This document shows positions 19,400-55,393 of a DNA stretch of 55,393 nucleotides, piece by piece. The stretch is from NCBI GenBank assembly GCA_021200535.1, contig JAJQGL010000022.1, positions 1 through 55,393 of the forward strand, read 5' to 3'. The first letter of the stretch is position 1; each line of letters opens with the position of its first letter. The notes under the pieces were generated by a model. That model saw nothing but the letters and a program-made list of their open reading frames with translations. It did no database searches and had not been told where the DNA came from. The stretch is from Clostridiaceae bacterium. Its GTDB lineage: Bacteria > Bacillota > Clostridia > Lachnospirales > Lachnospiraceae. The position numbers and the translations under genes are program-made.

Positions 19400-19480
19400 C
19401 CTTCGATATTTATTCATTAGCAAAAAGCGCATCAATAAAACCTTCCATATTTATCGATAGTCAAGAAGCGCCTCGATCAT
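19400..19480 (-). repeat. tandem echo of the ATP-grasp/HAD gene 3' end
   Basis: The last 40 bp of the gene at 19451-20734 plus its trailer (19441-19480) are repeated imperfectly at 19400-19440. On the minus strand the echo encodes FIDALFANE and a stop, beside the real MIEALLDYR and stop. Confidence 0.6.
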
Positions 19481-20734
19481 ATCAACATCAAAGACAGGTA
19501 TCCCGATTCTTTCCCGAATCTTCTTTCTCTCTGCAAACGAGTCATCAATAAAGATAGAATCTGTATCATTTATATACCTGTACTTCTCGTCCGTCGGTTC
19601 GATCTGAATGATTTTTTGAAAAATCCCCTTTTCAATGTGCCATTTTTCCAAATCCTTCTCCAAATTAGTGCTGTGTTTGGAGATAAGAATAATCCGCTTT
19701 CCTTTTTCAAGCGCCTGATAAAGGAAACAGATACACATAGCATTTACTTTTTCATTTACAATCAGCGTATCATCAAAATCCAAATAAACCGTATGATAGC
19801 TTATATCAATACTATACGCACTATAAAACGCCCGGTCAACAACAATTCCGTATGTATTATCAATAACAGAGACATCAAAGCCTTCTGTTACAAAAAGGGT
19901 AAGGAGCGGATAATTTATCCCGGTATTTCTTGACAAACCATTTGTGCCCGGTATCCGGGGAGAAATTTCCATAAGCATATATTCTCCCTCTGCATTCTTT
20001 TTAATCTGAAAAAACCACGCGCCGACAAACTGAAACCTTTGATTTATTCTATTTGCAATCTGCAATATTTTTTTCTCTTCCCCTAAAAGCTTCGAATGGA
20101 CAGCAATCCCTGTACGTATACGTTCCCGCGAACGGGCCTTTGCCGCCAGTAAATTCCCGTTTTTATCTGTAAAACAGTCAACCGTATACTCTTCTCCCGG
20201 TAAATATTCGCTGATTACCAGCGAGGAATCTGTTTTTACCGCCAATTCCAATTCACTCATAGAAGAAACCACCCTGGCACCCTGGCCTCCCTGGCTTTCT
20301 GCCGGTTTCACAAATACTGGAAATTCCTTTACATCCTCCGGCTTTTCCCATACTTCCGGAATAAAAGCTTCCGAAACCAAATATTGATATGTTCTTTTTT
20401 TAGAACGTAATATCTCAACCGTTGCAAGCGGCGCAGATATGATTTGCGCATCAATATCCTTTTGATTTTGCATAAGATACAACTGTATTGCATCATAAGC
20501 AGGATAAATATAATCAATACTATATTTTGCTATAGCTGCATTTATTTTTTCTATAAAATCCTTTTCCCCCATATAAGGGATATCCGTAATCAGATTTTCA
20601 TAAGCAAACTGCGAATGATCCGCAACACTTGTGGCTCCGAATATATTTACAAACTTGCTGTATTTTAAGGCGCGGTTAAGCTCCAATCCAATTTCAGAGC
20701 CTGCCGGAAATATCATAATATTGTATTTTTGCAT
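19451..20734 (-). CDS. ATP-grasp ligase fused to a HAD-like phosphatase domain
   Basis: 427 aa. Residues about 1-290 are a CarB-like ATP-grasp domain: MIFPAGSEIGLELNRAL, then FPVFVKPAESQGGQGARVV, LVISEYLPGEEYTVDCF, and MLMEISPRIPGTNG for metal binding. Residues about 310-427 are HAD-like: YLDFDDTLI (motif I, DxD-T), then IILISKHS, and IFIDDSFAERKKIRERIG (motif IV). So one chain may both ligate a carboxylate to an amine and hydrolyse or sense a phosphate. It lies upstream of the broken pyruvyl-transferase gene in the same direction. The target is probably a surface or flagellin sugar, inferred from neighbours. Confidence 0.8.
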   Translation of the reverse strand: MQKYNIMIFPAGSEIGLELNRALKYSKFVNIFGATSVADHSQFAYENLITDIPYMGEKDFIEKINAAIAKYSIDYIYPAYDAIQLYLMQNQKDIDAQIISAPLATVEILRSKKRTYQYLVSEAFIPEVWEKPEDVKEFPVFVKPAESQGGQGARVVSSMSELELAVKTDSSLVISEYLPGEEYTVDCFTDKNGNLLAAKARSRERIRTGIAVHSKLLGEEKKILQIANRINQRFQFVGAWFFQIKKNAEGEYMLMEISPRIPGTNGLSRNTGINYPLLTLFVTEGFDVSVIDNTYGIVVDRAFYSAYSIDISYHTVYLDFDDTLIVNEKVNAMCICFLYQALEKGKRIILISKHSTNLEKDLEKWHIEKGIFQKIIQIEPTDEKYRYINDTDSIFIDDSFAERKKIRERIGIPVFDVDMIEALLDYR

Positions 20735-21013
20735 CTCTATACCTGTGTTGTCCCTTTCCTCAGCTTACTATAACCTTACGTTAAACATGTCTTATTTTCC
20801 GTTGGCATCATACCGGAATGCCGCTTAAAAAAAGACAGTTTTTATTCCCCACACAATGTTTATTTAACTTATTCTTTTTCTCTGGATATAAAATGCCACA
20901 TCTGTATTTAGAAAACAAGATTTTTTAATACAAATATACCAAACCATTAAACAAAACCTAGTACAGCAAAAATTAAGTTTCAGATATTTTGCTACACAAT
21001 ATTGGGCATATCA

Positions 21014-21062
21014 AAAAAACACTTCACAGTTACAATATTTTTGTAACTGTGAAGTGTTTTTT
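21014..21062. terminator. strong bidirectional terminator
   Basis: A perfect 22-bp stem (21014-21035 with 21041-21062, 5-nt loop) with A6 and T6 ends gives a rho-independent signal on both strands. On the minus strand it lies 95 nt beyond the Rpn gene stop, with the wbqC relic between. The rest of the 20735-21156 gap is AT-rich and has no gene. Confidence 0.85.
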
Positions 21063-21073
21063 ACTTGCACTTT

Positions 21074-21149
21074 TGAATGAAACATTAATACATCAATAGA
21101 TGACAGACTAAAAACAAACTACAAATCAACCACGCCGATCGGATTGATA
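21074..21149 (-). pseudogene. relic of a wbqC 3' end
   Basis: 21074-21120 matches the wbqC sequence near 22294-22341 (TTTTGAATGAAACATTAATA versus TTTTGAATTAAACATTAATA and onward). Then 21121-21149 matches 22431-22459, with about 90 bp missing between. This is a decayed, internally deleted duplicate of part of the intact wbqC gene 1.2 kb away. Confidence 0.75.
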
Positions 21150-21156
21150 AAAGATA

Positions 21157-21993
21157 TCACATGGGCTGCAATTCTTTTTCCAATTTAAGTACCTGTTCCA
21201 GATTAAGTCCGGAATACATTGCAATTTTTTCCAATGACAAATCTCCATCTTCTATCATTCTCAATGCGGAATCTATTTTTTCCTGTTCTACACCCTGTTC
21301 AATCCCCTGTTCAATTCCCTGCTCAATTCCCTGCTCAATTCCCTGCTCATATTTTTCCTGATAATTCATTTGCAATGTCATATAATCCAACCTCCATTTC
21401 TCATTCTTTCTGACAGACTGTACCGCTTCTTCTAATTCTCTGGTAAAGTCATCTTGCGGTTCTTTGCCATCAATAAAATCAAGTAGTTTTTTCATCTCTG
21501 GTGTAACATCATCTTTTATACCCTTAGTATTTAAAATGATTTTCGTTGTATCATCTCCAAGACTTAACTCTGCATTTTGGATACAGCGATTTTCAAAGGT
21601 ATAGATGTGCCTTCCTTCACCAAACAAATCAAAGGTACATACAAAAATAACAAAACTTCGTTTCAAATCTTTGTAAGAAGCCCCTTTTTCTAAGGTATTC
21701 AAATCTATCATTCCTTGATAATATCTTGTTCTTTTAGGAAGATTTCCATTCTCGGTTGTCTGCATTTCAATATTATAAACAGTATTTTTTCCATCCTCTA
21801 CATAAATATCCAGGCGTACACTTTTCGCATCCGCAGAAATATCAATTGTTTCCTGTGATTTCGGATATTCAATGCGGGATATTTTTATGCCAAGTATTCT
21901 CTCCAAAAAAGGTTTGCAAAACCTTGGATTTCTCATGATAACACTAAACATGAAATCATCCTTAATTTGCAATTTCTCAAAGGCCTTTTCCAT
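21157..21993 (-). CDS. Rpn family recombination-promoting nuclease / PD-(D/E)XK transposase-like protein
   Basis: 278 aa. The family pattern is clear: LQIKDDFMFSVIMRNPRFCKPFLERIL at the N-terminus; a nuclease core SVRLDIYVEDGKNTVYNIEMQT (D...E-x-Q, about 62-82); LPKRTRYYQGMIDL; and KDLKRSFVIFVCTFDLF. A C-terminal run of EQGI tetrapeptides follows. The start at 21993 has AAGGAG upstream. Such genes are widespread, mobile-looking endonucleases linked to recombination. This one is bracketed by a wbqC relic on one side and a tetR relic on the other, which fits insertion or recombination at this spot. Confidence 0.88.
   Translation of the reverse strand: MEKAFEKLQIKDDFMFSVIMRNPRFCKPFLERILGIKISRIEYPKSQETIDISADAKSVRLDIYVEDGKNTVYNIEMQTTENGNLPKRTRYYQGMIDLNTLEKGASYKDLKRSFVIFVCTFDLFGEGRHIYTFENRCIQNAELSLGDDTTKIILNTKGIKDDVTPEMKKLLDFIDGKEPQDDFTRELEEAVQSVRKNEKWRLDYMTLQMNYQEKYEQGIEQGIEQGIEQGIEQGVEQEKIDSALRMIEDGDLSLEKIAMYSGLNLEQVLKLEKELQPM
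21291..21350 (-). repeat. 12-bp coding tandem repeat (EQGI x5)
   Basis: Five 12-bp units, three of them nearly identical, encode the repeated EQG(I/V) segment of the Rpn protein. Unit identity suggests recent slippage; copy-number change would keep the frame. Confidence 0.8.
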
Positions 21994-22062
21994 AATGACA
22001 CTCCTTCTTGTTTTATCTTTATTATAATGTGCATCAATGTAGATGACAAGCATTGATTTGCC

Positions 22063-22210
22063 ATAAATTAATTCAGGCTTTCTGTCTGCTGTTTAAAGAA
22101 AAGCCTGGCAGCAGGATTACAGTGAAAGAAATTACCAATCTGGCAGGCTATAACCGTTCCACATGAATTTTAAAGACGTTTTTGCACTATTCAAATATAT
22201 GGAAGATGAA
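22063..22210 (+). pseudogene. relic of the tetR gene
   Basis: About 148 bp align to 17531-17686 of the intact tetR gene at roughly 90 per cent identity, with one 7-bp deletion in the HTH-encoding part that breaks the frame. No start or C-terminal part is present. It shows that a copy of the ABC/TetR segment once lay next to wbqC, or that a duplication has since collapsed. Confidence 0.85.
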
Positions 22211-22251
22211 AAAAATTTCGATTTTGCACCAGAAATTCGGATACCGGGGTA

Positions 22252-22953: not shown

Positions 22954-23052
22954 AAAAACCTCCTGTTTCTTCTTATCCGATATACTAATCCTCATTCCGC
23001 CGCCTTTCAGTTGACGGCACAAATAGCTATGAAAGAGCTACATTCTCTCAAC

Positions 23053-24054: not shown

Positions 24055-24137
24055 CCGTCTCTCCTTTTTCTATGCTGACACGCCATGTTGTTTTGTACCA
24101 GGGTATGCCTTTTCTATCATGCCTCAAAACCTTAACC

Positions 24138-28220: not shown

Positions 28221-28270
28221 ATAAGTAATTGCAATAAATAATTGAAACAAATAACTGCAATAAATAGCTA
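28221..28270 (+). repeat. 13-bp tandem repeats between the two CgeB-like genes
   Basis: Roughly four degenerate 13-bp units of the form ATAAYTGMAAYAA fill most of the 82-nt gap, ending just before the ribosome binding site ACGGAGAAAG. This is one of several intergenic minisatellites in the window. Confidence 0.6.
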
Positions 28271-29400: not shown

Positions 29401-29454
29401 AGATGTGCCGGTGGGATAATAACAGTATGCTGTTATCATCCCACCGGCACATCT
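29401..29454. terminator. bidirectional terminator between convergent genes
   Basis: A 25-bp stem (29401-29425 with 29430-29454, one mismatch, TATG loop) followed by TATATTTTTA on the plus strand. It separates the CgeB-like pair from the convergent GT gene. Confidence 0.85.
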
Positions 29455-29459
29455 TATAT

Positions 29460-29519
29460 TTTTATCTGTGGCAGACCATGCATTCTTATCTGCGGCATAT
29501 CATGTATTTTTATCTGCAG
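29460..29519 (-). repeat. 24-bp tandem echo of the GT gene 3' end
   Basis: Units at 29460-29483, 29484-29507 and 29508-29519 (partial). The last lies in the gene and includes its stop: on the minus strand each unit carries GCAGATAA or CAGATAA, so the last codons and stop of the gene at 29510 are repeated downstream. Confidence 0.75.
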
Positions 29520-30676
29520 TGCTTTAGAATCTGCTCTGCAAACCTTTTCTCTGCCCCCATATCTTTTGCAATCCGTTTCCCTTTTTCTGCAATCTGTTCT
29601 AAAACTTCCGGATGCTCCAGAGCGGCAGACACCCGCTGCGCAACCTCTTCAATCTCCCGGTTATCATAAAAAACAACCGATTCCTGATCGTTAAAAATCT
29701 CTTCCAGCACCGGGTTCTGATCCGTAATGACTGCAGCGCCATTTGCCATGGCACACAGTGTCCGCATGCCGATCCCCTGCGGAGACGAAATCTGATTTTG
29801 CAATACCACCTTTGTATCCCCCATCACATCCAAAAGCTCTTCAAACGGCAGTCCCTCGCTGCCGCCCAAAATGGTCAGCTGATCCTGCCTGTCATCCGTA
29901 AACTGTTCCCAGCCCTCTCCGCAGACAGTCACAGAAATTCCTGCTGCTAAAAGCTGTCTTACTATTGCATCAAGATAATACGCCTGCAGATAATCATAGA
30001 TCACACGAAAGCAATGCATCAGCTCACCCATTTCATCCTCATAGACAGGCACGCCGATCACCTGCATATAGCGTTCTGTCAAAGCCTCTAGCGGGCTGTC
30101 CGGATTGATGGTAGCCATCCCGACCAGCTGCGTGGCAATCTCTGCAAAAGAACCCGGAAGCTCTTTGATCTTTGCTGCCAAGTCCCGCGGCTCCTGCCAC
30201 GTCGCCGGAACAAGCAGTTCAATTCCTCTTTCCTGATATGGTTTATCCGGCTGCTTTCCCTGAAATGCCGGCGGCACGACGTATTCCGTCTCTTCAAACT
30301 GCTTATAGCAGCGCTCTATATAAGGCACTGCATTCTGATTAGCACACCAAAAAGCAACATTCCAGGTTTTTAACTCAGACAGACATGGATGATAATACAA
30401 TGGGTGCTTCAGCAAATAAGAAAATATCTGCGCACCCAAAAGCTCTACCCACTTTGGCCCCACAATAGAGGAAATACCTAACCCATCGGTTTCAAGCGAA
30501 AAAAGAAACTTCGGTTCCTTCTGGTCATTTAATGTGGAAACAGCATCCAGCGAAGAAAGATTCACAACCATCAGATCGACCCCCATCTCCTCCAAAAGCC
30601 CGGCAAGCCGTTCCACAAAAAATTCCTTCCACTGATACTTTGATTTGCTTGTAATTAACAACGCTTTCCCTTCCAT
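29510..30676 (-). CDS. glycosyltransferase family 1-like protein
   Basis: 388 aa. The N-terminal half carries FLFSLETDGLGISSIVG and FWCANQNAVPYIERCYKQF. The C-terminal donor lobe has VTVCGEGWEQF, VVLQNQISSPQGIGMRTLC and AMANGAAVITDQNPVLEEIF, a CgeB/GT4-like ending. I favour ATG at 30676 with AAAGGA 11 nt upstream; ATG at 30688 is also possible. It follows the GT2-Maf fusion on the minus strand across a gap filled with echo repeats. It is probably one of the transferases building the flagellin glycan. Confidence 0.72.
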   Translation of the reverse strand: MEGKALLITSKSKYQWKEFFVERLAGLLEEMGVDLMVVNLSSLDAVSTLNDQKEPKFLFSLETDGLGISSIVGPKWVELLGAQIFSYLLKHPLYYHPCLSELKTWNVAFWCANQNAVPYIERCYKQFEETEYVVPPAFQGKQPDKPYQERGIELLVPATWQEPRDLAAKIKELPGSFAEIATQLVGMATINPDSPLEALTERYMQVIGVPVYEDEMGELMHCFRVIYDYLQAYYLDAIVRQLLAAGISVTVCGEGWEQFTDDRQDQLTILGGSEGLPFEELLDVMGDTKVVLQNQISSPQGIGMRTLCAMANGAAVITDQNPVLEEIFNDQESVVFYDNREIEEVAQRVSAALEHPEVLEQIAEKGKRIAKDMGAEKRFAEQILKHCR

Positions 30677-30758
30677 AATTTCTTTCATCCTTTCCCTGTG
30701 CCCGGTTCCGCCCAGATGCTCCTATCCGGCAAAGCCTGCACAAATACATATACTTATC

Positions 30759-30870
30759 CTATCCCTGCCGTGCTCCTGCAAGGTCAGAAACACATCATTC
30801 TATCCCTGCATATCCTGCAAGGTCATAAATATATCATTCTATCCCTGCAGTGCCTCCTGCAAGGTCATAA
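30759..30870 (-). repeat. about 40-bp tandem echoes of the GT2-Maf gene 3' end
   Basis: Units at 30759-30799 and 30800-30838 copy the segment starting at 30839, which is the end of the GT2-Maf gene. On the minus strand each ends in CAGGGATAG, the last codons and stop. One echo still reads FMTLQDMQG-stop beside the real LMTLQEALQG-stop. Confidence 0.8.
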
Positions 30871-33748: not shown

Positions 33749-33779
33749 AGGATTCCCCTTTTCCCGCACTGCCTTTCCC

Positions 33780-36679: not shown

Positions 36680-36752
36680 TCTTATTTCATCTTTTATTTC
36701 ATCTTTTACTTCATCTTTTATTTCATTTCTTTATTTCATTTCTTACTCCATC
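36680..36752 (-). repeat. 12-bp satellite echoing the 104-aa gene 3' end
   Basis: Five to six units of about 12 bp. On the minus strand each contains ATGAAATAA or ATGAAGTAA, echoing the gene end ATGGAGTAA at 36743. It fills the gap before maf. Confidence 0.75.
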
Positions 36753-37057
36753 TCGCCCAGCAAGCCCTCGATATACTCCACAAAGTCATACTGCATAATG
36801 TCCGCAACCAATACCATATCTCTCTCTTCCAGCGCATTCATCGCTTCCACCAGAGCGCCTTTAATCTTTTCCTCATCTAATGAAAAGCCCTCATGAGACG
36901 TCTTATACTGAAAAAGCACATCAATCATAGTTGCCAGCTTTGCCAAAATACCGTCAAACTGCTGCAGTGCCTCTTCTGTTTTCTGCTGGTAAAACAACTC
37001 CACATTTTCCTGCAATTCGTTGATTGTCGCAACTACTAACTGTTTCTCCTGACCCAT
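36743..37057 (-). CDS. small helical protein between flagellin and maf, unknown function
   Basis: 104 aa, acidic, almost all helix, with heptad-like runs (VATINELQENVELFYQQKTEEALQ type at 10-30; IDVLFQYKTSHEGFS; EDEEK-rich middle). No domain recognised. Start chosen at 37057 with AAAGGAGAGG upstream; a longer open frame runs back through the flagellin terminator and is unlikely. Its place between flagellin and a flagellin glycosyltransferase suggests a small partner or chaperone for glycosylation, which is only an inference. Confidence 0.6.
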   Translation of the reverse strand: MGQEKQLVVATINELQENVELFYQQKTEEALQQFDGILAKLATMIDVLFQYKTSHEGFSLDEEKIKGALVEAMNALEERDMVLVADIMQYDFVEYIEGLLGEME

Positions 37058-37154
37058 AACTCCATTCCTCTCCTTTTTTATAGATTCCCCGGCAGACTTA
37101 TCGGCGCAGCGCCTGCCTGCCTCTTCGCAGTATTCCCTTTTATGGCAAAAAATA

Positions 37155-37175
37155 GGGTTGACCAATGGTCAACCC
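37155..37175 (-). terminator. flagellin terminator
   Basis: GGGTTGACC and GGTCAACCC enclose a 3-nt loop, followed on the minus strand by TATTTTTTG, 26 nt past the flagellin stop. A typical rho-independent terminator for an abundant single-gene transcript. Confidence 0.9.
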
Positions 37176-38303: not shown

Positions 38304-38335
38304 ACCTTTTTTTGAAATATTTTTATTTAATATTT

Positions 38336-38824
38336 TTATTTTTTCTGGTCTAAAAAATAAGACTGCCATTCATGGTGCTGATTCGCCATATTCTGTCGGT
38401 AACAGGCAACCGTTTTGTTGTTCAGGTTAAACTTGCGGATCTCATTCCTTTTCTTTTTGGAAAAGGATTCAAAGGCTAATTTGTTCTTCTGCTCCAGCGC
38501 CTGAATCTGTACGCTGCAGTCCGTGATGGTGCGGATAAAATTCTGCATTTCCAGAATTTGCGGCCTGTACCGCCCCGCATCCTGCTGTAACGCATCACGC
38601 ACCTTCCGGAAAACAGAATCAAAGCCGTTGTCCAAACGCTGCATTTTACGGATCAGAATCCCCTTCTGATTCAACAGGCTGTCAAACGCTTCTGTATCCA
38701 GCTCATCCTGTCCCAGCAGGTTCTGCTGCTGTTTGGTCAGCTTTAAAACCTCCTGCAGTGTTTCCCATTTTTTCCGCAGAGAATCCTGTAATGCAGAAAG
38801 ATAAATTGCGATATCCTGCTCCAT
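38336..38824 (-). CDS. probable flagellar chaperone (FliT-like), 162 aa
   Basis: A small all-helical protein directly after fliS. Helices such as IYLSALQDSLRKKWETLQEV and ALEQKNKLAFESFSKKKRNE give a long helical hairpin like FliT/FlgN-type export chaperones, but I see no specific motif. Start at 38824 with AAAGGGG upstream. Being last in the flaG-fliD-fliS operon, it is most likely the cap-protein chaperone FliT or a functional equivalent. The flagellin promoter starts just downstream of its stop. Confidence 0.6.
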   Translation of the reverse strand: MEQDIAIYLSALQDSLRKKWETLQEVLKLTKQQQNLLGQDELDTEAFDSLLNQKGILIRKMQRLDNGFDSVFRKVRDALQQDAGRYRPQILEMQNFIRTITDCSVQIQALEQKNKLAFESFSKKKRNEIRKFNLNNKTVACYRQNMANQHHEWQSYFLDQKK

Positions 38825-38857
38825 GATAACCCCTTTCTGTCTCAAACCCGAAAAGTA

Positions 38858-42811: not shown

Positions 42812-42880
42812 TTGATAATTATATATAATTTTATAATTATATATAATTTTTATATACAGTTTTTATATATAATTCAGCAG
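42812..42880 (-). repeat. AT-rich tandem echo of the flgL 3' end
   Basis: On the minus strand the end of flgL (CTGAATTATATATAA) is followed by three further blocks with the ATTATATATAA or TATATAA core within 55 nt. Units of about 18 bp at 42815-42832 and 42833-42851 are almost identical. Confidence 0.65.
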
Positions 42881-44392: not shown

Positions 44393-46225
44393 CTATACTG
44401 CAGTATCATTGATTAATTTATCCAAAACTTCATTCATGATCGAAAGTACCTTGTACTGGTATGTCAGGAGATTCTGACAGATTACCAGATTCTGCGCTTC
44501 TTCATCCTCATCCACACCGGAAACAGATAACCTTCTGTTTTCAACGGAGTCCCTTAAATTCTCCGCATTTTCACTGGATGTCTCAATTTTTTTGCCATCC
44601 ACTCCGGCTGTCGAAATCATTACCTGCAGGAACGAAGTCGGCGTTCCCTGACGGAACATGGTCGTATCACTGGACAAATCCGACATTTTTAAAAGATTTT
44701 CATTGTTGGCAACCTCATCCGGGGCAGATGCACACGCAAGAAGCGACCCATCCTTTAAAATAGTCTGGTCAACGGATGCGTTTAACGCCGTCATGCTGTA
44801 ATAGGATGTGTAGATATAACCGTCAGCCGCTGCGTCTGACAAAGCAGACGAAATCGTGTACGGCTGCTCAATATCAGTAAAGCGCATCTCTGTGCCGGAG
44901 ACATCATCTGTCGCAATAAATACCTGTTCTCCCAGATCACCGTTCAGGTCGTATCCCTCTGTCTGAATCTGATTGAAATAATAAGAAAACGTACGGACAA
45001 ATTCGTTTAACTGTGACATATAATACGGAATGCCGCGGTAGTCTACCTCATCGCCAATGGTCGCCGTCTTATCTGTCATATCAATGTCCAGCTCTCTGTC
45101 TAAATAAAACGTATATGTGTAGGTTCCGTCCTCATCCACCGTCAGCTCGAAATAATCATATGTATACTCTGCATTGCCGACTGTAATCACACCATCCGTC
45201 TCCGGAATATCTAATTTAAAGAGGGATGTGCTGACTTCACTGTCTCCCTGTATCGTTATGGTCGTACTGCCCTTAGCCCCATCTGTCACCGTGCCGCTAA
45301 AATACTCACCGTTATTGCCGTCGCGGATTTCAATCAGACCCTGCAGCTTGCCGCCAAGCTCGGAATCATACATGTCAAAATCTGCCCCGTTGCTCCAGCG
45401 CAGTGTGTAAAGATTGGAATAATCGTTCTGCGCATTGGTAGTTCCCGTCGTCTCATAGATCAGTGTATTCGTCTCATATGTGTCAACCAGCACCGTGCCT
45501 CCTATGCTGACGATATACTGGTTCAGCCCATTGCCATCGGCAGGCTCCTTTTCTGTCACCTCGACATTGACCAGCTCTGACAGGCTGTCAATAATTGCAG
45601 CGCGCTGGTCCCTCAGATCATTTGCCGTTGTGCCGAATACTTCCAGATTGTTAATCTGCTTGGTCAGGGAAGCAATCTCCTTTGCATATGCATTAATCAG
45701 ATCAACAGTATCTGCAATTTCCGTATTTGCATCCTCCTGAAGCTGTAAAAGATTGTTGGCTGCTTCATTGATCGACTGCATCAGCGTCTCGGCATAAGAA
45801 ACCACCTGCATGCGCTTTGTCGTATCTGTCGCATCCGTTGTCAAATCAGAAATCGTTGTAAAAAACTCATCAATCGCATTGGTAATTCCGCCGCTGTCAG
45901 AATCATCCACCCAGAGATAATCCTGGATAGAATCCATATAATATTGCATGGTGCTGTACATGCCGTAATCCGAATTGCTGGCACGGTATTTCTCATCCAG
46001 ATAGATATCTCTTGTGCTTTCTATGCCTGTTACCACAACGCCTGCCCCCTGCACGCCATAAGAGGTTCCCAGGGAAAGGCCTTCGCCGGCAGTCTGTGTA
46101 ACCGTCTGTTTACTGTAGCCTGTCGTCTGCACATTTGCAATATTATGTGCCGTTGTATTTAATGCCGCATTATATGCATTCATGCCGGATGCCGCAATCG
46201 TAAGTCCCCAAAATGTTGAAGCCAT
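44393..46225 (-). CDS. flgK: flagellar hook-associated protein FlgK, second copy
   Basis: 610 aa. N-terminal FWGLTIAASGMNAYNAALNT, then HNIANVQTTGYSKQTV (the rod/hook ANxxTxGY signature), and the FlgK-typical NDLRDQRAAIIDSLSELVNV at about 205. The C-terminal VDEDEEAQNLVICQNLLTYQ and MNEVLDKLIN complete it. It is adjacent to, and clearly different from, the FlgK at 46244 (614-residue class both). ATG follows AGGAGGGAATGAT. Two hook-filament junction proteins in tandem are unusual, and could assemble in one junction or alternate. Confidence 0.9.
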   Translation of the reverse strand: MASTFWGLTIAASGMNAYNAALNTTAHNIANVQTTGYSKQTVTQTAGEGLSLGTSYGVQGAGVVVTGIESTRDIYLDEKYRASNSDYGMYSTMQYYMDSIQDYLWVDDSDSGGITNAIDEFFTTISDLTTDATDTTKRMQVVSYAETLMQSINEAANNLLQLQEDANTEIADTVDLINAYAKEIASLTKQINNLEVFGTTANDLRDQRAAIIDSLSELVNVEVTEKEPADGNGLNQYIVSIGGTVLVDTYETNTLIYETTGTTNAQNDYSNLYTLRWSNGADFDMYDSELGGKLQGLIEIRDGNNGEYFSGTVTDGAKGSTTITIQGDSEVSTSLFKLDIPETDGVITVGNAEYTYDYFELTVDEDGTYTYTFYLDRELDIDMTDKTATIGDEVDYRGIPYYMSQLNEFVRTFSYYFNQIQTEGYDLNGDLGEQVFIATDDVSGTEMRFTDIEQPYTISSALSDAAADGYIYTSYYSMTALNASVDQTILKDGSLLACASAPDEVANNENLLKMSDLSSDTTMFRQGTPTSFLQVMISTAGVDGKKIETSSENAENLRDSVENRRLSVSGVDEDEEAQNLVICQNLLTYQYKVLSIMNEVLDKLINDTAV

Positions 46226-46243
46226 ATCATTCCCTCCTGTCTG

Positions 46244-48097
46244 TTATCCAAGCCGTTCAATCAGATGCTCCAGCATGGCATCTACGGTTGTAATATATCT
46301 CGAAGCCGCATTGTAAGCATGCTGGTACATGAGCAGATTGATCATATCTTCTTCTGTAGATACACCTGAAATCTGCTGCCGTTTGTCCTCTACGCCTTCC
46401 ACCAGCGTTGTCTGTGTATCGACCATACTGTCCCAGGTCATGCCCTGCACGGCAAGCGCACCAATCATTGCCGTGTAAAAATCGTTGACATTGTATGTGG
46501 ACAGGGTATTCGGGTCTAACACAAGGTCCTCTGTATTCCAGGAATCCAGAATATTCTGAAAAACATCATAGTCATATTCATCTGTCCTTCCCGCTGCCGA
46601 ATTTGCCTTGACCGGAAGGTAAGAATAATTCCCCTGAACCGTCTGGTTAATTTCCAGATTCTGCAGTGTATACAATGTGCTGGTATCAGATGGATCCTCT
46701 TCATTGTATACGTATAATTTATAGGTGCCGTCTCCCAAATCCTGTGTAACAGCAATCGGATTGCCATCCTCATCAAGCACCTGATTGCCATCTTCGTCTG
46801 TCTGGTAAACCGGATAATCCAGAATATATGTTGTATAGCGTTCCTGTGAACTCCGGGAAATTACCTCTGTCCCAATGGTGGCATCATCATCTGTTCCAAC
46901 CGGACAATTTGTGGCATCAAGAACCTTAACCATGCCGGTAATCTCGTTGCCATCTGCATCCTGAATGCCCAGACCGGATAAATTGGTTGAAACATTCGGT
47001 GCAAACGCATCATTGATTGCTGTAACAATTTTATTGATCAACAGGTCAAACTGTGCCTCTATGTTCTGCAGCAGGCAGCTGCCTGTGGTATTGTTATATT
47101 CATCCAGCTCATCCTTTGTCGGATCAGTCGGAATGTCTGTATAATATCCGTAATTGTTTCCTCTCGCCACCAAAATACCAAGCAGCGATCCCATGTCAGT
47201 ATCGTCCTCATACGAATATGCTTTGTCAAGGTTGTAAACCTCGCCGTATCCGCTGTCCGCCCATTTGACGGTATACAGCGGCGAAGTCGCCGTCACAACA
47301 AGATTTCCATTCTCATCATATTCTTCATACTGAATCTTTTCACAGGTCATATGATAGCTGGTAGAATCCTCTACCAGAGGAGCATTATTGATTCGGATGG
47401 TTACCTGGCTGTTGCTTTCGTAATACTCAAAATCCGTGTACGTTGCCAGCTCATCCATCAAAAGGTTTCTGGCATCCCGCAGATCATTTGCGTTTTCAAC
47501 ACCGGACGCCTCAATCTTTGCAATCTGCACATTCAGGTCTGCTATCTGATCTGCTATCGAGTTGATCGCTTCTACCTGTGAGACGATCTGTGTGTTCAGG
47601 TTTACCTGATAATCCTTTAATGCCGTATAGACATTTTGCGCCTGCTCCAAAAAGGCTTCCACCTGTGCGATAAACAATTCCCTGTTTGTAATGCTCTCCG
47701 GATTGGTAGAAAGCTCCTGTACTGTATCCCACAGCTCACTCAGCGCATCATTAAATTCAACGCCTTCCATCTCGCCGAAAATGTCTTCCACTTCTTCTTC
47801 CGTTGCCTGCAAAACTTCGTAAAAGCTGAGGCGGCTGGTCTCAACGCGGTACTCTTTATCCAAAAACTGATCCCGTATCTGGCGGATCAGCGCAACCGAT
47901 GTACCGGAGCCGACCTGCAATGTGCTGGTCGATGTGACTTTATAGGTCTGGTAATAAGTGTCTGTGCTGATATTCTGCTGTCTGGTATATCCCTCAGTCG
48001 CTGTATTTGCCAGATTGTGCGCCGATGTGTTAATCCCGGACTGCGCTGCCTGTAAACCAGACACACCGGCATTAAAACTTGTCAATAAACTGCTCAT
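46244..48097 (-). CDS. flgK: flagellar hook-associated protein FlgK, first copy
   Basis: 617 aa. N-terminal LLTSFNAGVSGLQAAQSGIN, HNLANTATEGYTRQQ, and NDLRDARNLLMDELATYTDF at about 205. C-terminal VSTEEDMINLLMYQHAYNAA and ITTVDAMLEHLIERLG are the standard FlgK end. The domain order equals that of the second copy, with low identity outside the termini, so this is an old duplication. The gap of about 210 nt to flgN holds a hairpin and a low-complexity tract. Confidence 0.92.
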   Translation of the reverse strand: MSSLLTSFNAGVSGLQAAQSGINTSAHNLANTATEGYTRQQNISTDTYYQTYKVTSTSTLQVGSGTSVALIRQIRDQFLDKEYRVETSRLSFYEVLQATEEEVEDIFGEMEGVEFNDALSELWDTVQELSTNPESITNRELFIAQVEAFLEQAQNVYTALKDYQVNLNTQIVSQVEAINSIADQIADLNVQIAKIEASGVENANDLRDARNLLMDELATYTDFEYYESNSQVTIRINNAPLVEDSTSYHMTCEKIQYEEYDENGNLVVTATSPLYTVKWADSGYGEVYNLDKAYSYEDDTDMGSLLGILVARGNNYGYYTDIPTDPTKDELDEYNNTTGSCLLQNIEAQFDLLINKIVTAINDAFAPNVSTNLSGLGIQDADGNEITGMVKVLDATNCPVGTDDDATIGTEVISRSSQERYTTYILDYPVYQTDEDGNQVLDEDGNPIAVTQDLGDGTYKLYVYNEEDPSDTSTLYTLQNLEINQTVQGNYSYLPVKANSAAGRTDEYDYDVFQNILDSWNTEDLVLDPNTLSTYNVNDFYTAMIGALAVQGMTWDSMVDTQTTLVEGVEDKRQQISGVSTEEDMINLLMYQHAYNAASRYITTVDAMLEHLIERLG

Positions 48098-48104: not shown

Positions 48105-48240
48105 CTCTTTTCTATTCTGCTGTCTGCTTTGCTTTACTGTCTGTTTCGCTTCACTGTCTGCTCTGTTTTTTCTGCTCAGCTTTGCTGTTTCTGTCCTTTT
48201 CTGCTCTGCTTTTTTTCTGCTATTCTCTGCAGCACTGCTT
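48105..48240 (-). repeat. low-complexity AGCAGA/ACAGTAAAGC tract upstream of flgK
   Basis: On the minus strand the flgK leader is nearly free of T and is built from AGCAGA, GAAACAG and ACAGTAAAGC pieces. It may be a much-decayed satellite of the flgN end GCAAAACAGTAA. A 65-aa frame through it is likely not a gene. Confidence 0.5.
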
Positions 48241-48306: not shown

Positions 48307-48310
48307 ATAA

Positions 48311-48826: not shown

Positions 48827-48842
48827 TGCATAACCTCATTTC

Positions 48843-49121: not shown

Positions 49122-49164
49122 TTTAATCACCACCTATAAATATTCTTTAACATTTTCATTATAT

Positions 49165-49191
49165 GTATCGGTGAAATTTGGGAATACTTTA
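49165..49191 (-). promoter_or_regulatory. sigma-28 promoter of the flgM operon
   Basis: TAAA (49188-49191), 15 nt, ACCGATAC (49165-49172) on the minus strand, about 40 nt before the flgM start. Confidence 0.85.
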
Positions 49192-49220
49192 GCCCTGCCC
49201 GGAATTTTTTGCAGAAGAAA

Positions 49221-49241
49221 AACCGGAACATCGTTCCGGTT
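49221..49241 (-). terminator. lysA terminator
   Basis: AACCGGAAC and GTTCCGGTT with a 3-nt loop, followed by TTTCTTCTG on the minus strand. It lies about 100 nt past the lysA stop, with the satellite tract between, and just before the flgM promoter. Confidence 0.75.
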
Positions 49242-49244
49242 TCC

Positions 49245-49345
49245 CTGCTTTCATACTGTTTCTTACTGTTTTACGTTTCCTATTTTTTACTTTTTTTCAC
49301 TGTTTTTTACTGTTTTACTTTTTCTATTTTTCTTACTGTTTTTTA
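49245..49345 (-). repeat. degenerate ACAGTAA satellite after lysA
   Basis: On the minus strand the lysA stop is followed by about 100 nt of A-rich units containing AACAGTAA, AACAGTGA or AAAGTAAAA, each with a possible stop codon. The unit length is irregular (10-15). Confidence 0.55.
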
Positions 49346-50611
49346 ATATTTCATATCTTTCAGAATGTCCGAAAAATCAAAAGTCGCGAAGTAATCTTTT
49401 GGTGTCTCGGCGCGCCTGATCAGCTGTACGCTGCCATCTTCTTTTAACAGAAGCTCCGCAGATTTTAACCTGCCGTTGTAGTTATAACCCATTGCGAAGC
49501 CATGTGCGCCGGTGTCGTGAATAAAAAGATAGTCTCCCTTCTCAATCTGAGGCAGCATTCTGTCTACTGCAAATTTATCGTTATTCTCACAGAGCGAACC
49601 GGTAACATCGTATTTGTGGTCACACGGTTCGTTTTCCTTCCCCAGCACCGTAATATGATGGTACGCACCGTACATGGCCGGGCGCATCAGATTGACTGCA
49701 CACGCGTCCACACCGATATACTCTTTATGAATATGCTTTTCATGGATTGCCTTTGTCACAAGACCGCCGTACGGCGCCAGCATGAAACGTCCCAGCTCTG
49801 TAAATATAGACACATCCCCCAGTCCCGCAGGAACCATGACCGCTTCAAACTGCTTCCTCACACCGTCGCCGATTACCGCAATGTCATTTGGTTCTCTGTC
49901 CGGTGTATACGGCACTCCCACGCCGCCAGACAGATTAATAAATGCAATGTCTGCACCGGTTGCCTCTTTTACCTCGACTGCCAGCGCAAATAAAATCCCG
50001 GCAAGGGTTGGATAATATTCGTTCGTCACAGTGTTGCTCGCAAGAAATGCGTGAATCCCAAAACGCTTTACGCCCAATTCCTTTAATCTGTTAAAAGCTT
50101 CGATCAGCTGTTCTTTCGTCATGCCGTACTTTGCATCGCCCGGATTGTCCATGATTTCCGTTCCCATCTGGAACACGCCGCCCGGGTTAAAACGGCAGCA
50201 AACCGTCTCCGGAATCTCTGTCTCAGCCCTTAAGCAATCAATATGGGTAATATCATCCAGATTAATATAAGCCCCCATCTCGTTTGCCATCCGAAATTCT
50301 CCTTCCGGCGTGTCATTGGAGGAAAACATGATATCGCTCCCTGAAAATCCGCATGCATCCGACAGCATCAGCTCTGTCGCAGAGGAGCAGTCTACGCCGC
50401 AGCCCTCCTCCTGCAGTATCTTCAAAATATACGGATTCGGCGTTGCCTTAACTGCAAAATATTCCTTATAGCCCTTGTTCCATGAAAAAGCCTGTTTCAG
50501 CTTCCGGGCATTCTCGCGAATCGCCTTTTCATCATAAATATGAAACGGCGTTGGGTATGTCTCTGCTATCTTTTCAATCTGTTCTTTCGTCACAAACGGT
50601 ATCTTTTTCAT
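49343..50611 (-). CDS. lysA: diaminopimelate decarboxylase
   Basis: 422 aa PLP enzyme of fold III that decarboxylates meso-diaminopimelate to lysine. PLP lysine in EYFAVKATPNP (about 52); glycine-rich FINLSGGVGVPY (about 220); second-subunit catalytic Cys in VTGSLCENNDKFA (about 343); and HDTGAHGFAMGYNYNGRLKS at the end. A related carboxynorspermidine decarboxylase is less likely given these motifs. ATG follows AAAGGAATTGACGTAA. A single gene divergent from the topoisomerase pair. Confidence 0.88.
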   Translation of the reverse strand: MKKIPFVTKEQIEKIAETYPTPFHIYDEKAIRENARKLKQAFSWNKGYKEYFAVKATPNPYILKILQEEGCGVDCSSATELMLSDACGFSGSDIMFSSNDTPEGEFRMANEMGAYINLDDITHIDCLRAETEIPETVCCRFNPGGVFQMGTEIMDNPGDAKYGMTKEQLIEAFNRLKELGVKRFGIHAFLASNTVTNEYYPTLAGILFALAVEVKEATGADIAFINLSGGVGVPYTPDREPNDIAVIGDGVRKQFEAVMVPAGLGDVSIFTELGRFMLAPYGGLVTKAIHEKHIHKEYIGVDACAVNLMRPAMYGAYHHITVLGKENEPCDHKYDVTGSLCENNDKFAVDRMLPQIEKGDYLFIHDTGAHGFAMGYNYNGRLKSAELLLKEDGSVQLIRRAETPKDYFATFDFSDILKDMKY

Positions 50612-50711
50612 TTACGTCAATTCCTTTCTGCTTTATCTTATCGCATCACACCTGCTTTGCTTTGCACTCCCTGATTCTATCATCATTTAGCCCCCATTTC
50701 AATATTAGAAT

Positions 50712-50741
50712 TTGCATTCTTTTTTTTCTTTGTGTTATAAT
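50712..50741 (+). promoter_or_regulatory. sigma-A promoter of the topoisomerase operon
   Basis: TTGCAT (50712-50717), 18 bp including a T8 run, and TATAAT (50736-50741), about 110 nt before the start at 50852. Confidence 0.7.
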
Positions 50742-50851
50742 CGTTACTATTCATAATTCATCTGAATTTACTGACAGAATCACCGCGCTTGTACGCGTTG
50801 CTTGCACAAATATTGCTTTATGCGCAAAAAATGCGCAGAAATGAGGAAAAC

Positions 50852-52834
50852 ATGAGTGAATATACAGGAAAAGAAATTGTCGTTTTAGAAGGCCTGGAGG
50901 CTGTCCGAAAGCGTCCCGGCATGTATATCGGTTCAACCGGCTCAAGAGGGCTTCACCATCTGATCTGGGAAATTCTGGACAACAGTATTGATGAGCATCT
51001 TGCCGGCTTTTGCGATGAGATCAGCATTACCGTCCAGAAAGACGGCGGCATCTGTATTGAGGATAACGGCCGAGGTGTTCCGGTGGACATCCATCCGACC
51101 AAAAAAATCCCAACTGTGCGCGTAGTATACACAATCCTTCATGCGGGTGGGAAATTTACCGGCAGCGCCTATAAGGTTTCCGGCGGCCTGCACGGTGTCG
51201 GATCTTCTGTTGTCAATGCACTCTCGCGCAAAATGATCGTAGAGGTGCGCAAAGGAGGGCATATATACCGGGATGAATATGAAAATGGAGGGCATCCGGT
51301 AACGCCACTTGAAAACGGCCTTTTGCCATCGGTTGGAAAATGCGCCAAAAGTGCGACCGGAACCAAAGTAATCTTCTATCCAGATCCCGAAATTTTTGAG
51401 ACGGTAAACTTTAAGGCCGATATCATCAAAAAGAAGCTGAAAGAAATCGCTTTTTTAAATAAAAATTTAAAGCTCAATTACAAAAATGAATGGGATCAGC
51501 AGGAACTTGTCTATATGGAAGAATTCGGCATCCAGAGCTTTGTTCGCTATATTAACCGCGATGCGGCCGTCCTGCATGATGAGCCTATTTATATTGAAGG
51601 AAAAAGCGGCGACATTGAAGTCGAAATTGCGTTCCAGTATACAACCAATTTTACAGAACAGATCAATCCATACTGCAACCGGATCAATGTCGTGGACGGC
51701 GGCACACTGGTCACCGGCTTTAAGACGGCGCTGACGCGTGTTATGAACCAGTACGCCAGAGAGCTTGGCGTGTTAAAAGACAAGGATGAAAATTTTGACG
51801 GAAAAGATATCCGCAACGGCCTTGTCGCTATTATATCCATTAAGCACCCAGACCCACAGTTTGAAGGACAGACAAAAACGAAGCTGGGAAACACCGATGC
51901 AAAGAGCGCGGTCGATGATGTCTTTAGCGCGGAGGTGCAGCGCTATCTCGACAAAAATATTGATACCTTAAAGAAAATACTGGACAACTCTATGAAATCC
52001 TACCATGCGCGAAAAGCGGGCGACCGGGCCAGAAATGCAGTCCTAAAGCAGTTAAATGACGTCGATACAAAAAGCAAGCTTGCCGCCTGTACCTCGAAAA
52101 AGCCAGAGGAATGCGAGGTTTATATTGTAGAGGGAGACTCTGCAGGCGGCACGGTAAAAACAGCGCGGAACAGAAAAACGCAGGCCGTTTTGCCACTGCG
52201 CGGCAAGATATTAAATGTAGAAAAGGCATCCCTTGAAAAAATTCTCCAGAACAATGAGATCAAGTCTATGATTGCATCCTTTGGCTGCGGAATCGGCGAT
52301 GATTTTGACATTTCGAAACTGCGCTATGACAAAATCATTATTCTGACCGATGCGGATGTAGACGGCGCTCATATCAGCACGCTGCTTCTGACCTTTTTCT
52401 ACCGGTTTATGCCGGAGCTGATCTACGAAGGAAAAATTTACCGCGGCCTCCCGCCGCTTTACAAGGTAGACTATGAAAAACGAAACGGTGCAAAGCCCGA
52501 TGAAACGGAAAAGCAAAAGGCGGCGCCGAAAAAAAAGAAACGGGGTAAGAAAATATATTCGGAATATGTTTTTAATGATTTTGAACTGGAAAAATTCCGC
52601 AAAAATAAAAACAATAAAATCATTAGCATCCAACGTTACAAAGGTCTTGGAGAAATGGACGCAGAGCAGCTCTGGGAGACGACACTGGATCCGGAGAGCC
52701 GTATTCTCGCACAGGTTTCCATCAGCGATACGGTTGAGGCTGACGATATTACAACAACACTGATGAGCAGCAACGTTCCTCCAAGACGGCAGTTTATAAT
52801 GGAAGAAGCAAAATATGCCACTTTGGATATTTAA
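50852..52834 (+). CDS. parE: type IIA DNA topoisomerase subunit B (GyrB/ParE family, probably topoisomerase IV)
   Basis: 660 aa. The GHKL ATPase motifs are EILDNSIDEHLAG (about 36), DNGRGVPVDIHP (about 70) and GGLHGVGSSVVNALS (about 113). The TOPRIM domain shows EGDSAGGT (about 430), LPLRGKILNVEKA and LTDADVDGAHIST. A lysine-rich insert (KAAPKKKKRGKK, about 555) precedes the GyrB-type end RYKGLGEMDAEQLWETTLDP. It pairs with the A subunit next door to pass one duplex through another. Start at 50852 with GAGGAAAAC. Gyrase versus topoisomerase IV is judged mainly from the A subunit. Its 3' end is echoed twice downstream. Confidence 0.85.
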   Translation: MSEYTGKEIVVLEGLEAVRKRPGMYIGSTGSRGLHHLIWEILDNSIDEHLAGFCDEISITVQKDGGICIEDNGRGVPVDIHPTKKIPTVRVVYTILHAGGKFTGSAYKVSGGLHGVGSSVVNALSRKMIVEVRKGGHIYRDEYENGGHPVTPLENGLLPSVGKCAKSATGTKVIFYPDPEIFETVNFKADIIKKKLKEIAFLNKNLKLNYKNEWDQQELVYMEEFGIQSFVRYINRDAAVLHDEPIYIEGKSGDIEVEIAFQYTTNFTEQINPYCNRINVVDGGTLVTGFKTALTRVMNQYARELGVLKDKDENFDGKDIRNGLVAIISIKHPDPQFEGQTKTKLGNTDAKSAVDDVFSAEVQRYLDKNIDTLKKILDNSMKSYHARKAGDRARNAVLKQLNDVDTKSKLAACTSKKPEECEVYIVEGDSAGGTVKTARNRKTQAVLPLRGKILNVEKASLEKILQNNEIKSMIASFGCGIGDDFDISKLRYDKIIILTDADVDGAHISTLLLTFFYRFMPELIYEGKIYRGLPPLYKVDYEKRNGAKPDETEKQKAAPKKKKRGKKIYSEYVFNDFELEKFRKNKNNKIISIQRYKGLGEMDAEQLWETTLDPESRILAQVSISDTVEADDITTTLMSSNVPPRRQFIMEEAKYATLDI

Positions 52835-52920
52835 AACAGGAAGAGAAGAAGCAAAATATGCTGCTTTTGATATTTTAAAACAGAAAAAAAAGAAGCAGAA
52901 TATGCTGCTTTTGATATTTA
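52802..52920 (+). repeat. triplicated parE-like gene 3' end
   Basis: Unit 1 (52802-52839) holds the last codons and stop; unit 2 (52845-52883) and unit 3 (52892-52920) repeat it with few changes. The text GAAGCAAAATATGC, then CTTTTGATATTTTA or CTTTGGATATTTAA is shared. Offsets of about 43-44 bp are not multiples of three. Confidence 0.9.
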
Positions 52921-52944
52921 GAATAAGAAGAAATGAGGAGTACT

Positions 52945-55206
52945 ATGACCACAAAGGACCAGTCTGTAATACAAATAGATTTTTCGGACGAAATGAAAAC
53001 TTCATACCGTGATTATGCTGTCAGCGTAATCATTTCCCGTGCCCTCCCTGACGTGAGAGACGGTTTGAAGCCGGTACAGAGGCGCATTCTCTATGCCATG
53101 ACGGAGCTTGGGCTTTCGCCTGACAAGCCGCACAGAAAAAGCGCACGTATTGTCGGCGACACAATGGGTAAATACCACCCGCACGGCGACAGCTCGATTT
53201 ACGATGCACTTGTGCATATGACCGAAGATTTTTCACTTTCCCTTCCATTGGTGGACGGGCATGGCAACTTCGGCTCGATCGACGGAGACAGCGCTGCGGC
53301 AATGCGTTACACCGAAGCAAGGCTTTCGAAAGGCGCTATGGCCCTTTTGGAAAACCTGGACAAGGGGCTGGTGCCGTTTGGCCCCAATTTTGACGAGAGC
53401 GAAAAAGAACCTCTCGTGCTGCCGGCTACCCTTCCCAACCTTTTGATCAACGGAACCACCGGCATTGCCGTTGGAATGGCAACAAACATTCCGCCGCATA
53501 ATACCTCCGAGGTGATTGACGGAGTGATCGCCTATATTAAAAATCCTGAAATTTCTACCAAGGGGCTGATGAAATATATCAAAGGCCCGGATTTTCCAAC
53601 CGGGGCAATGATTACCAATGCCGATGATATCCTGTCGATCTATGAGACAGGCGAGGGAAAGCTGACCCTGCGCGCAAAAGCAGTGATTGAGGACAGCGAT
53701 TATGGCAGGAAAAATATTGTAATCACGGAAATCCCGTATACGGTCGCCGGAAATAAGACCAAGCTTTTAGAAAACCTGGTGGCTCTTTCCAAAGAAAAGG
53801 TATTTGATGAGATTTATGACGTCCGGGACGAATCCTCAAAAGAGGGCATCCGCCTGATTGTCGAAGTCAAAAAAGACCGGAATATTGACAATTTACTCAA
53901 CGGCCTTTACAAAAAGACAGCCATGGAAGATACCTACAGCGTTAATATGCTTGCTGTCAAGGATAATCAGCCAATCACCTTTAACTTAAAAAGCCTGATT
54001 CAGGAGTTTCTGGCGTTTCAGGAAGAGCTTTACACCAAAGAGTACGAACACCTTCTCGCCAAAGCAAATGACCGCTTAGAGATTGTGGAGGGGCTGATTA
54101 AAGCAACCGATGTCATTGACCTGATCATCGAAATCCTGCGCGGCAGCAATTCTGTCCGGCAGGCGAAAAACTGCCTGATTCACGGTGACATTACAGATAT
54201 TTCCTTTAAATCCAAAAAATCCGAAAAAGAAGCTGCGACGCTTTGTTTTACAGAACGCCAGGCAGACGCAATCCTTGCCATGCCGCTTAGCAAGCTGATC
54301 GGGCTGGAATTGCTTAAGCTGCATCAGGAAAACAATGCGCTGATCAGCAGCATCACAGAATATACAACCATCTTAAACGACGTTGACGAGCTGCACAAAA
54401 TTATTATTGCACGCCTGCGGGCATACAAAAAGGAATTTGGCAGGGAGCGCCGCACATCTCTGGAGAATATTACAAAAGAAAAATACATCAAAGAGATTAA
54501 GGAAGAGGAACTGTATCTTTTGATCGACCGCTTTGGCTATGTGAAATCTTTAGATCAGGCAAGCTTTTCCCGCTTGTCGGAAGAAACGCTTTCGGATTAT
54601 ACGCATATTATTCCGATTAAAAATACAGACCAGCTCTGCATCTTTACCGAAGAGGGCAGCATGTATAAAGTAAAAGCAATGAATATTCCAAAGGGACGAA
54701 TCCGTGATAAGGGCGTACTGATTCAAACACTTTGCCGGGCAGGCAAGGAAAATATCCTGCTGTATATCTCTGCAGAAAGCCTGGCAGAATCCCTCCTTTT
54801 CTTTGCGACGCAGAAGGGCTTTGTCAAGCAGGTATCCGGCATAGAATTTGAGACAACACGCTTTTCTGTCTCGTCAACAAAATTGGATGAGGACGACCGG
54901 ATCGCCGGCATTACTGCACTCAGCGTAGAAGATATTCTTGCCGGAAACCGAAAGGTTATCCTGATTACGAAAAAGGGGCTTTCGCTGGGTTATCCGTTTG
55001 CGGAAGTCAGCGAATTAAAAAAGACAAGCCGCGGCGTAAAGGGCATTACTCTGGATGATGGCGATCAGGTACAATACGCTGCCGTTGTCACGCCGGATAT
55101 GGAAGAAATTACTTTCGAGCAGAGAAAATATAATCCAAAGAAAATCAAAAGCCAGAAACGTGCTGCAAAAGCAAGGAAAGCACAGATAAAAATAAACGAA
55201 ACGTAA
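52945..55206 (+). CDS. parC: type IIA DNA topoisomerase subunit A (GyrA/ParC family, probably topoisomerase IV)
   Basis: 753 aa. [20 protein letters not shown] (about 24) and [20 protein letters not shown] mark the breakage-reunion domain; the catalytic tyrosine is in [14 protein letters not shown] (about 118). A coiled-coil region with the LLKLHQEN area follows, then a C-terminal beta-pinwheel. The gyrase-defining GyrA box (QRRGGKG type) is replaced by KTSRGVKG, which suggests a decatenating topoisomerase IV rather than gyrase. The start at 52945 has GAGGAGTACT; the longer frame holds that site. Closed by the terminator at 55229. Confidence 0.85.
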
Positions 55207-55228
55207 TAGAATACAGAAGCTATACGTG

Positions 55229-55262
55229 AACACAGCCGTCTGCTCTGGCAGGCGGCTGTGTT
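55229..55262 (+). terminator. terminator of the topoisomerase operon
   Basis: A 15-bp stem (AACACAGCCG... with one G-T pair, TCTG loop) followed by TGTTGTTTTATATTTTATTTTT. A typical rho-independent terminator. Confidence 0.9.
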
Positions 55263-55289
55263 TGTTGTTTTATATTTTATTTTTGTGTC

Positions 55290-55393
55290 TCGTTTCTGTG
55301 TTTGATCTTGTGTTTTATCTTGTGTTTGATCTTTGCGTTTGATCTTGCGTTTGATCTTGTGTTTTATTTTGTGTTTGATCTTGTGTTTTATTT
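55290..55393. repeat. 12-bp satellite at the right edge
   Basis: About eight units of TTGATCTTGTGT or TTTATCTTGTGT run to the end of the window, past the terminator. The array may continue beyond. Confidence 0.85.

Follow-up and report, generated by a model that had tools for sequence, protein, structure and literature searches.

Why should genes in one stretch of bacterial DNA end, again and again, in tandem copies of their own stop-codon region? The stretch in question, referred to here as the window, is contig C93 in its full length (55,393 bp; JAJQGL010000022.1) from a Clostridiaceae bacterium genome (GCA_021200535.1, here G000), which comprises 2,894,690 bases (2.89 Mb) in 118 contigs and is 91% complete. 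Pfam matches mark the window as a flagellar and glycosylation region, with flgN, flgL, fliD, flagellin, glycosyltransferases and a topoisomerase pair. When the rows returned by Tandem Repeats Finder (TRF) are read against the genes, seven array rows in the window cover a stop codon; in the topoisomerase B array, copy 1 contains the last 10 codons of the gene together with its stop. The original prediction, drawn from the window sequence, offered slippage primed at gene ends, backup stops, mRNA 3′ structure or a source of new C-termini as possible meanings, and knew of no named system of this kind. We consider it probable that no dedicated system is involved and that the arrays reflect ordinary, independent tandem duplication in a repeat-rich lineage, with the survivors placed by selection.

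Placement was assessed in 46 pieces of G000, the window among them, that hold 965,681 bases, or one third of the genome. TRF arrays were kept at a period of at least 9 and a score of at least 50, with overlapping rows at one locus merged; genes were called with a home-made hexamer caller, which yielded 794 genes once those shorter than 80 codons or with a coding score below 20 were left out. The 135 arrays found divide into 54 within coding sequence (CDS), 46 intergenic, 25 across a stop codon, 7 across a start codon and 3 across both; 81 touch noncoding DNA, a count that still contains two overlapping rows from one locus (flgL). Expected numbers were obtained by placing one unit randomly on the noncoding-touching positions of a collapsed genome in 200 simulations. 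The 25 stop-only arrays compare with 8.9 ± 2.6 expected, and none of the 200 simulations reaches 25; by contrast, starts (7 against 9.1) and spacers (46 against 61.0) fall below random placement, and 3 arrays covering both are seen where 1.1 are expected. The comparison had been fixed beforehand as the genome-wide check on the pattern and, run on this third of the genome, it returned enrichment at stops rather than the absence of it.

The window itself is a cluster: it makes up 5.7% of the sampled bases but contains 7 of the 25 stop-only arrays, and this clustering probably drew first attention to the pattern. Because the window had prompted the question, it was left out of a retest; stops again stand out (18 against 8.2 expected, 0 of 200 simulations as high), whereas starts do not (7 against 8.3). 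The excess is also seen among arrays with a period of at least 20 (16 against 6.6; without the window 12 against 6.5, 6 of 200), among those with a score of at least 80 (17 against 6.7; without the window 13 against 6.3, 4 of 200), and when array ends are trimmed and the window is excluded (16 against 7.8, 3 of 200). Compared directly, stops outnumber starts by 25 to 7 (p = 0.002), or by 18 to 7 without the window (p = 0.043). The arrays are not due to chance: 642 gaps taken with 60-bp flanks hold 77 of them, against 1–5 in five dinucleotide-shuffled sets.

A self-match count that does not depend on TRF, scoring at least 27 of 35 matching positions, was positive at 26 of 768 stops, 5 of 777 starts, none of 794 mid-CDS positions and no shuffled sequence. 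In the middles of gaps of at least 150 bp, 5 of 216 positions scored, so that by this measure stops lie far above starts and only a little above gap middles (3.4% versus 2.3%). How far stops exceed spacer DNA thus varies with the measure used. By TRF, arrays 121–400 bp behind a stop occur at 0.5 times expectation. A link to transcript ends was considered and set aside, as arrays are about equally frequent at stops followed by a gene in the same orientation (24 of 635 tandem gaps) and in convergent gaps (4 of 118).

Coding and stop-spanning arrays differ in frame. Of the 54 arrays within CDS, 51 have a period divisible by three; across stops (28 arrays, including the three that also cover a start), this holds for only 8, the periods leaving remainders of 0, 1 and 2 in 8, 12 and 8 cases. 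Units of the stop arrays measure 10–61 bp and are mostly present in 2–4 copies. The original prediction had called the position constant, which is right insofar as the stop is always included, but the stop may fall anywhere in the unit (compatible with a uniform distribution, Kolmogorov–Smirnov p = 0.39). The stop in use lies in copy 1 of 26 arrays and in copy 2 of the other 2; the apparent start of arrays at the stop of their gene is in part a geometric effect, because translation terminates at the first stop in frame. Between copies 1 and 2 (arrays with a period below 20 or with copies less than 75% identical being left out here and in the folding comparison below), third codon positions differ at 25 of 109 sites and first and second positions at 26 of 201 (p = 0.026), as if copy 1 alone were under coding constraint. 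The proposal that the arrays supply new C-termini was not supported: CDS arrays show no concentration near the C-terminus in the sample, with 5 lying within 90 bp of the stop where 4.9 are expected, and among the 26 array-bearing gene pairs of G000 and its sister species G020, introduced below, the protein alignment extends to within 8 residues of both C-termini in 25.

Are the arrays shared with relatives? The topoisomerase B protein finds its best named matches mostly in Lachnospiraceae metagenome genomes, which makes it probable that the bacterium belongs to this family. The gene of that protein, topB, was located at 46 loci: the window's own, 23 in congeners and 22 in named relatives. Forty-five of these can be read through to topA, one (L083) being omitted as its contig ends there; the set holds two pairs with identical spacers (L032/L100 and L036/L103), which are probably the same genomes. 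The topB–topA spacer has a median of 30 bp, and TRF finds the topoisomerase B array in none of the 44 readable spacers of relatives. G020, the closest relative found (topB 90% identical), carries an array of its own there, with a 46-bp unit in 6.2 copies that starts 48 bp past the stop, and one further spacer (L102) contains a 119-bp repeat in 1.9 copies more than 500 bp past the stop.

The comparison with G020 was extended to 73 orthologous pairs, 3 of 76 without a closed stop having been dropped and 22 of the 65 loci L258–L322 being unused; joined C140 and C90 pieces were also dropped, as they were already in the sample. Arrays past the stop occur in both species at 8 pairs, in G000 only at 9, in G020 only at 9 and in neither at 47. 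Co-occurrence at 8 of 73 exceeds the roughly 4 expected (Fisher p = 0.018), but in a set whose stretches were partly chosen for arrays and in which one spacer is counted twice, so that it amounts to no more than a hint. None of the 8 shared positions holds clearly related units, the closest match (two 17-bp units in the flgN spacer) being equalled by 14 of 200 shuffles, and in G020 no array follows the orthologs of flgL or of the open reading frame (ORF) at window positions 36743–37165. Judged from the sequences, the arrays are not conserved where relatives could be compared. Nor is the stop preference of G000 significant in its sister, where stops carry 10 arrays against 7.7 expected (46 of 200 simulations as high) and starts 10 against 8.1. 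In the first G020 sample, arrays across the stop number 9 against 5.9 (1.5-fold), whereas those 11–30 bp behind it number 6 against 1.7 (3.5-fold). G020 units are longer (median 62.5, versus 24 in G000). Some array-bearing G020 spacers (for example L219, L222 and C139) span 160–430 bases, versus 20–62 in G000. A difference of another kind was noted at L211 (G000:C105), where, in comparison with G020:C36, some 7 kb of sequence (L211 positions ~570–7590) is inverted relative to the next segment in the sister genome.

The two sister species also stand out in array load, expressed as noncoding arrays per 100 kb of noncoding DNA (counts in brackets). G000 has a load of 69 (81) and G020 of 106 (36), or 109 (48) with added loci. 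Other congeners reach 28 (15; G014), 17 (4; G006), 14 (3; G008) and 5 (1; G004), the 5-kb topB loci of the 23 congeners together 39.5 (4), named relatives 31 (13) and 34 (27), and Escherichia coli K-12 8 (2). In four other sets the direction is weakly that of G000, with 3, 5, 2 and 1 stop arrays against 1.9, 3.3, 1.2 and 0.2 expected, and 0, 1, 1 and 0 start arrays against 2.0, 3.5, 1.3 and 0.2; G004, G006 and the topB loci hold no stop arrays, 0.1–0.2 being expected in each. Two candidate causes of the high load were rejected in a survey of 25 genomes that did not include G020. Loss of mutS1 is contradicted by a MutS1 match of 1035.6 bits in G000, above the family cut-off, and loss of sbcC by a full-length SbcC match of 290 bits in G000, although none of the 25 genomes reaches the cut-off of that family. 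G000 in fact encodes two SbcC-like proteins (G000:C30:10650-13244 and G000:C62:15096-18233), one a full-length match and the other divergent (a 1294-aa frame), and G005 likewise has a similar second SbcC-like protein.

These observations are best accommodated if short, minisatellite-like duplications are gained independently and then decay in noncoding sequence of a lineage with a high duplication load, the G000/G020 lineage presumably gaining them faster, or retaining them longer, than the other relatives sampled. Purifying selection would then decide where arrays survive. Inside genes, persistence would be almost confined to units whose length is a multiple of three; across starts, little would survive and no enrichment would build up; and in spacers, survival would be free. 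A duplication spanning a stop would be tolerated because copy 1 still encodes the whole C-terminus and the stop, and the extra copies, probably neutral, would end up behind the gene and drift. Slippage or template switching may be the origin. The original prediction's slippage is thus plausible as a source, but its priming at gene ends is not indicated, since G020, with the higher load, shows no significant stop preference.

Several results weigh against this account. Stop-covering arrays reach 2.9 times expectation, whereas those 0–60 bp past the stop reach only 1.1–1.2 times; mere tolerance would make stops as permissive as the adjoining spacer, which by this measure they are not in G000. 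The excess is found among arrays with at least 90% matches (10 against 2.5 expected) as well as among older ones (15 against 6.3), and its larger size in the former also argues against a detection bias, in which slower decay of the coding copy would keep stop arrays visible for longer. Copies of the stop arrays differ at only 35 of 290 sites in their noncoding part, a rate below that of third codon positions, which a plain model of a constrained copy 1 and a free copy 2 does not predict. The counts behind the low congener loads are small, and against pooled relatives the contrast in load is only about two-fold. A two- to three-fold stop excess in this genome is left unaccounted for by tolerated duplication as we describe it, and may reflect tolerance that the null model misses or a mild mutational preference.

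A stronger form of that preference, in which the junction of stop and 3′ untranslated region favours slippage or template switching in this lineage, would explain why the excess drops just downstream of the stop, why it is strongest in the least diverged arrays and why arrays recur at orthologous stops in both species. We nevertheless regard such a hotspot as unlikely. The sister with the even higher load has no significant preference, and its arrays are in greater excess 11–30 bp behind the stop than across it; there is no fixed register relative to the stop, tandem and convergent gaps are not clearly different, and the co-occurrence was counted with gap length uncontrolled besides the selection and double counting mentioned above. 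That a process peculiar to the lineage duplicates gene ends preferentially, striking the same genes repeatedly and independently and with a different unit on each occasion, seems to us rather improbable. We are more doubtful still of a selected function, be it backup stops, an mRNA 3′ structure with a protective or regulatory role, or a spacer by which translation of the following gene would be uncoupled. The position at stops would suit it, and the array at 36682–36754, whose 12-bp units carry TAA, supplies several further TAA triplets. Yet with unit lengths random to the frame, most copies' stops are out of frame, which speaks against backup stops. Folding is equally ordinary: the median z is −0.65 for 19 arrays with a period of at least 20 and −0.68 for 40 control stops, and z falls below −2 in 3 of the 19, compared with 20% of controls. 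Two of the 19 fall below −2.5 (−6.4 and −2.9), as a structural role would have it, but overall the arrays fold no more strongly than control stops. In the relatives compared, moreover, the arrays are absent or replaced by unrelated ones.

Two further readings question the arrays as a class. G000 is fragmented and its genes were called by a script, so an artefact of the assembly or of the caller has to be considered; it is highly improbable, given that copies differ by substitutions, that every locus has its own unit, that other fragmented genomes, analysed with the identical caller and TRF settings, have low loads, and that shuffled controls yield so few arrays. As for a single dispersed element inserted behind many genes, copies of mycobacterial interspersed repetitive units (MIRUs) are related to one another, and a MIRU-like, bacterial interspersed mosaic element-like or TAACTGA-like repeat should likewise recur. 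Many loci and similar sizes are indeed seen, and an intergenic array at L214 (G000:C55, 11025-11160) has a 61-bp unit with 20 matches at other places in the third of the genome that was sampled. However, at E ≤ 1e-3 the 81 arrays yield only three related pairs, of which one consists of two overlapping rows at a single locus; only 3 of 81, all intergenic, match elsewhere in the sample at E ≤ 1e-5; and no related unit common to many stop-covering arrays was found. We give a common element next to no chance, in agreement with the original prediction, which had read the loci as independent. The L214 repeat may belong to a dispersed element separate from the stop arrays.

The best reading, resting on comparison with published systems, places stop-spanning arrays among the already known bacterial tandem repeats, with the variable-number tandem repeats (VNTRs) of Yersinia pestis as precedent. 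Of the 88 VNTR loci described there, 48 are intergenic and 24 intragenic with units divisible by three, while 10 overlap a stop and 6 a start; the authors suggest that variation across a stop might matter less (PMC3689786). The stop-overlapping VNTRs answer the statement that no named system resembles the pattern. G000 shares with them the locus-specific, head-to-tail copies and the intragenic units that are multiples of three, which are the marks of bacterial minisatellites and VNTRs in general. The differences are that Y. pestis units are mostly 7–21 bp, shorter than the median in G000, and that their copy number varies between genomes, whereas here one genome per species was compared (PMC3689786); in G000, moreover, the stop excess was measured against random placement. 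MIRU-VNTRs, including an array upstream of fpg, are likewise intergenic tandem repeats tens of bases long, but MIRUs are described as scattered over 41 locations (PMC2734929), whereas units here are mostly unrelated between loci. The TAACTGA direct repeats of marine Beggiatoaceae are similarly abundant, lineage-specific and intergenic; among 25 proteins with such repeats in or overlapping their ORFs, 13 have them across the stop of an upstream gene. They consist, however, of a single heptamer that in the tabulated cases mostly points to a downstream start codon, unlike the longer units that differ from locus to locus here (PMC4679880). Among the matches listed from open-licence literature, none dealt with tandem repeats in this lineage; with coverage restricted to open licences and few queries naming the lineage or its order, the absence proves little.

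If the arrays are ordinary, they map the places at which a compact bacterial genome lets short duplications persist: in frame within genes, freely in spacers and across stops, and less often across starts. The weightier point would be that load differs between species placed in one genus (69–109 versus 5, 14, 17 and 28, the low values resting on small counts), and that in the spacers compared the two sister species had no array in common. Load contrast and lack of shared arrays together offer, in this lineage, a natural setting in which to ask what difference in replication or repair sets the rate.

Coordinates of the arrays in the window are collected in the table. TRF recovered, with the stop covered, the arrays that the original prediction had placed at the ends of the glycosyltransferase, GT2-Maf and topoisomerase B genes; the flgL repeat of about 18 bp is also present, overlapped by a second one, and the lysA satellite begins exactly at the stop. 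The 12-bp array does cover a stop, but that of a 140-aa ORF rather than of the 104-aa gene named. The 41-bp repeat of the ATP-grasp gene is real and spans the stop, though it is weak, with two copies that stay under the TRF threshold, and 20 of 768 stops (itself included) score equally well. By contrast, flgN, the first CgeB-like gene and the topoisomerase A gene are each followed by a satellite that lies wholly downstream, ~15–115 bp past the stop. The repeat at the flgN-like gene was not in the earlier list.

Tandem arrays at and behind gene ends in the window
Array	Position	Strand	Relation to gene
43-44 bp x3	52802..52931	+	stop of topoisomerase B (gyrB/parE-type) gene 50789-52834; TRF and sequence
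39-41 bp x2.7	30759..30867	-	across stop of GT2-Maf (Glycos_transf_2 + MptE-like) gene 30839-33769; TRF
24 bp x3	29445..29517	-	across stop of glycosyltransferase gene 29510-30688; TRF
12/24 bp	36682..36754	-	across stop of ORF 36743-37165 (140 aa); TRF
AT-rich overlapping repeats, 18 bp x2 (42815-42850) and 13 bp x2.9 (42837-42874)	42815..42874	-	stop of flgL 42863-44371
13 bp x2, perfect	38316..38341	-	across stop of flgN-like gene 38336-38845
10 bp, A-rich low complexity, 70% matches	49249..49345	-	begins exactly at stop of lysA-like gene 49343-50611
two degenerate copies, 41-bp spacing (33/45; best 35-mer 27/35)	19398..19483	-	across stop of ATP-grasp gene 19451-20734
13 bp x3.5	28221..28266	.	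~15 bp past stop of first CgeB-like gene; stop not included
17 bp x4.3	48120..48195	.	flgN-flgK spacer, 115 bp past flgN stop; stop not included
12 bp x7.6	55297..55388	.	90 bp past topoisomerase A stop; stop not included

Repeats also occur inside genes of the window. In the GT2-Maf gene, an 18/36-bp repeat (32626-32716) occupies part of the stretch separating the glycosyltransferase domain from the MptE-like one; by Pfam the window encodes two MptE-like (Maf) proteins. Gene 21157-22053 contains a 12/24-bp repeat (21282-21349) that apparently encodes EQGIEQG-type repeats, tails which, we assume, recall those of Rpn/PD-(D/E)XK nuclease-like proteins. Beside flgL and flgN, two FlgK_D1 (hook-associated protein 1) proteins of 617 and 610 aa are encoded in tandem (44393-48097).

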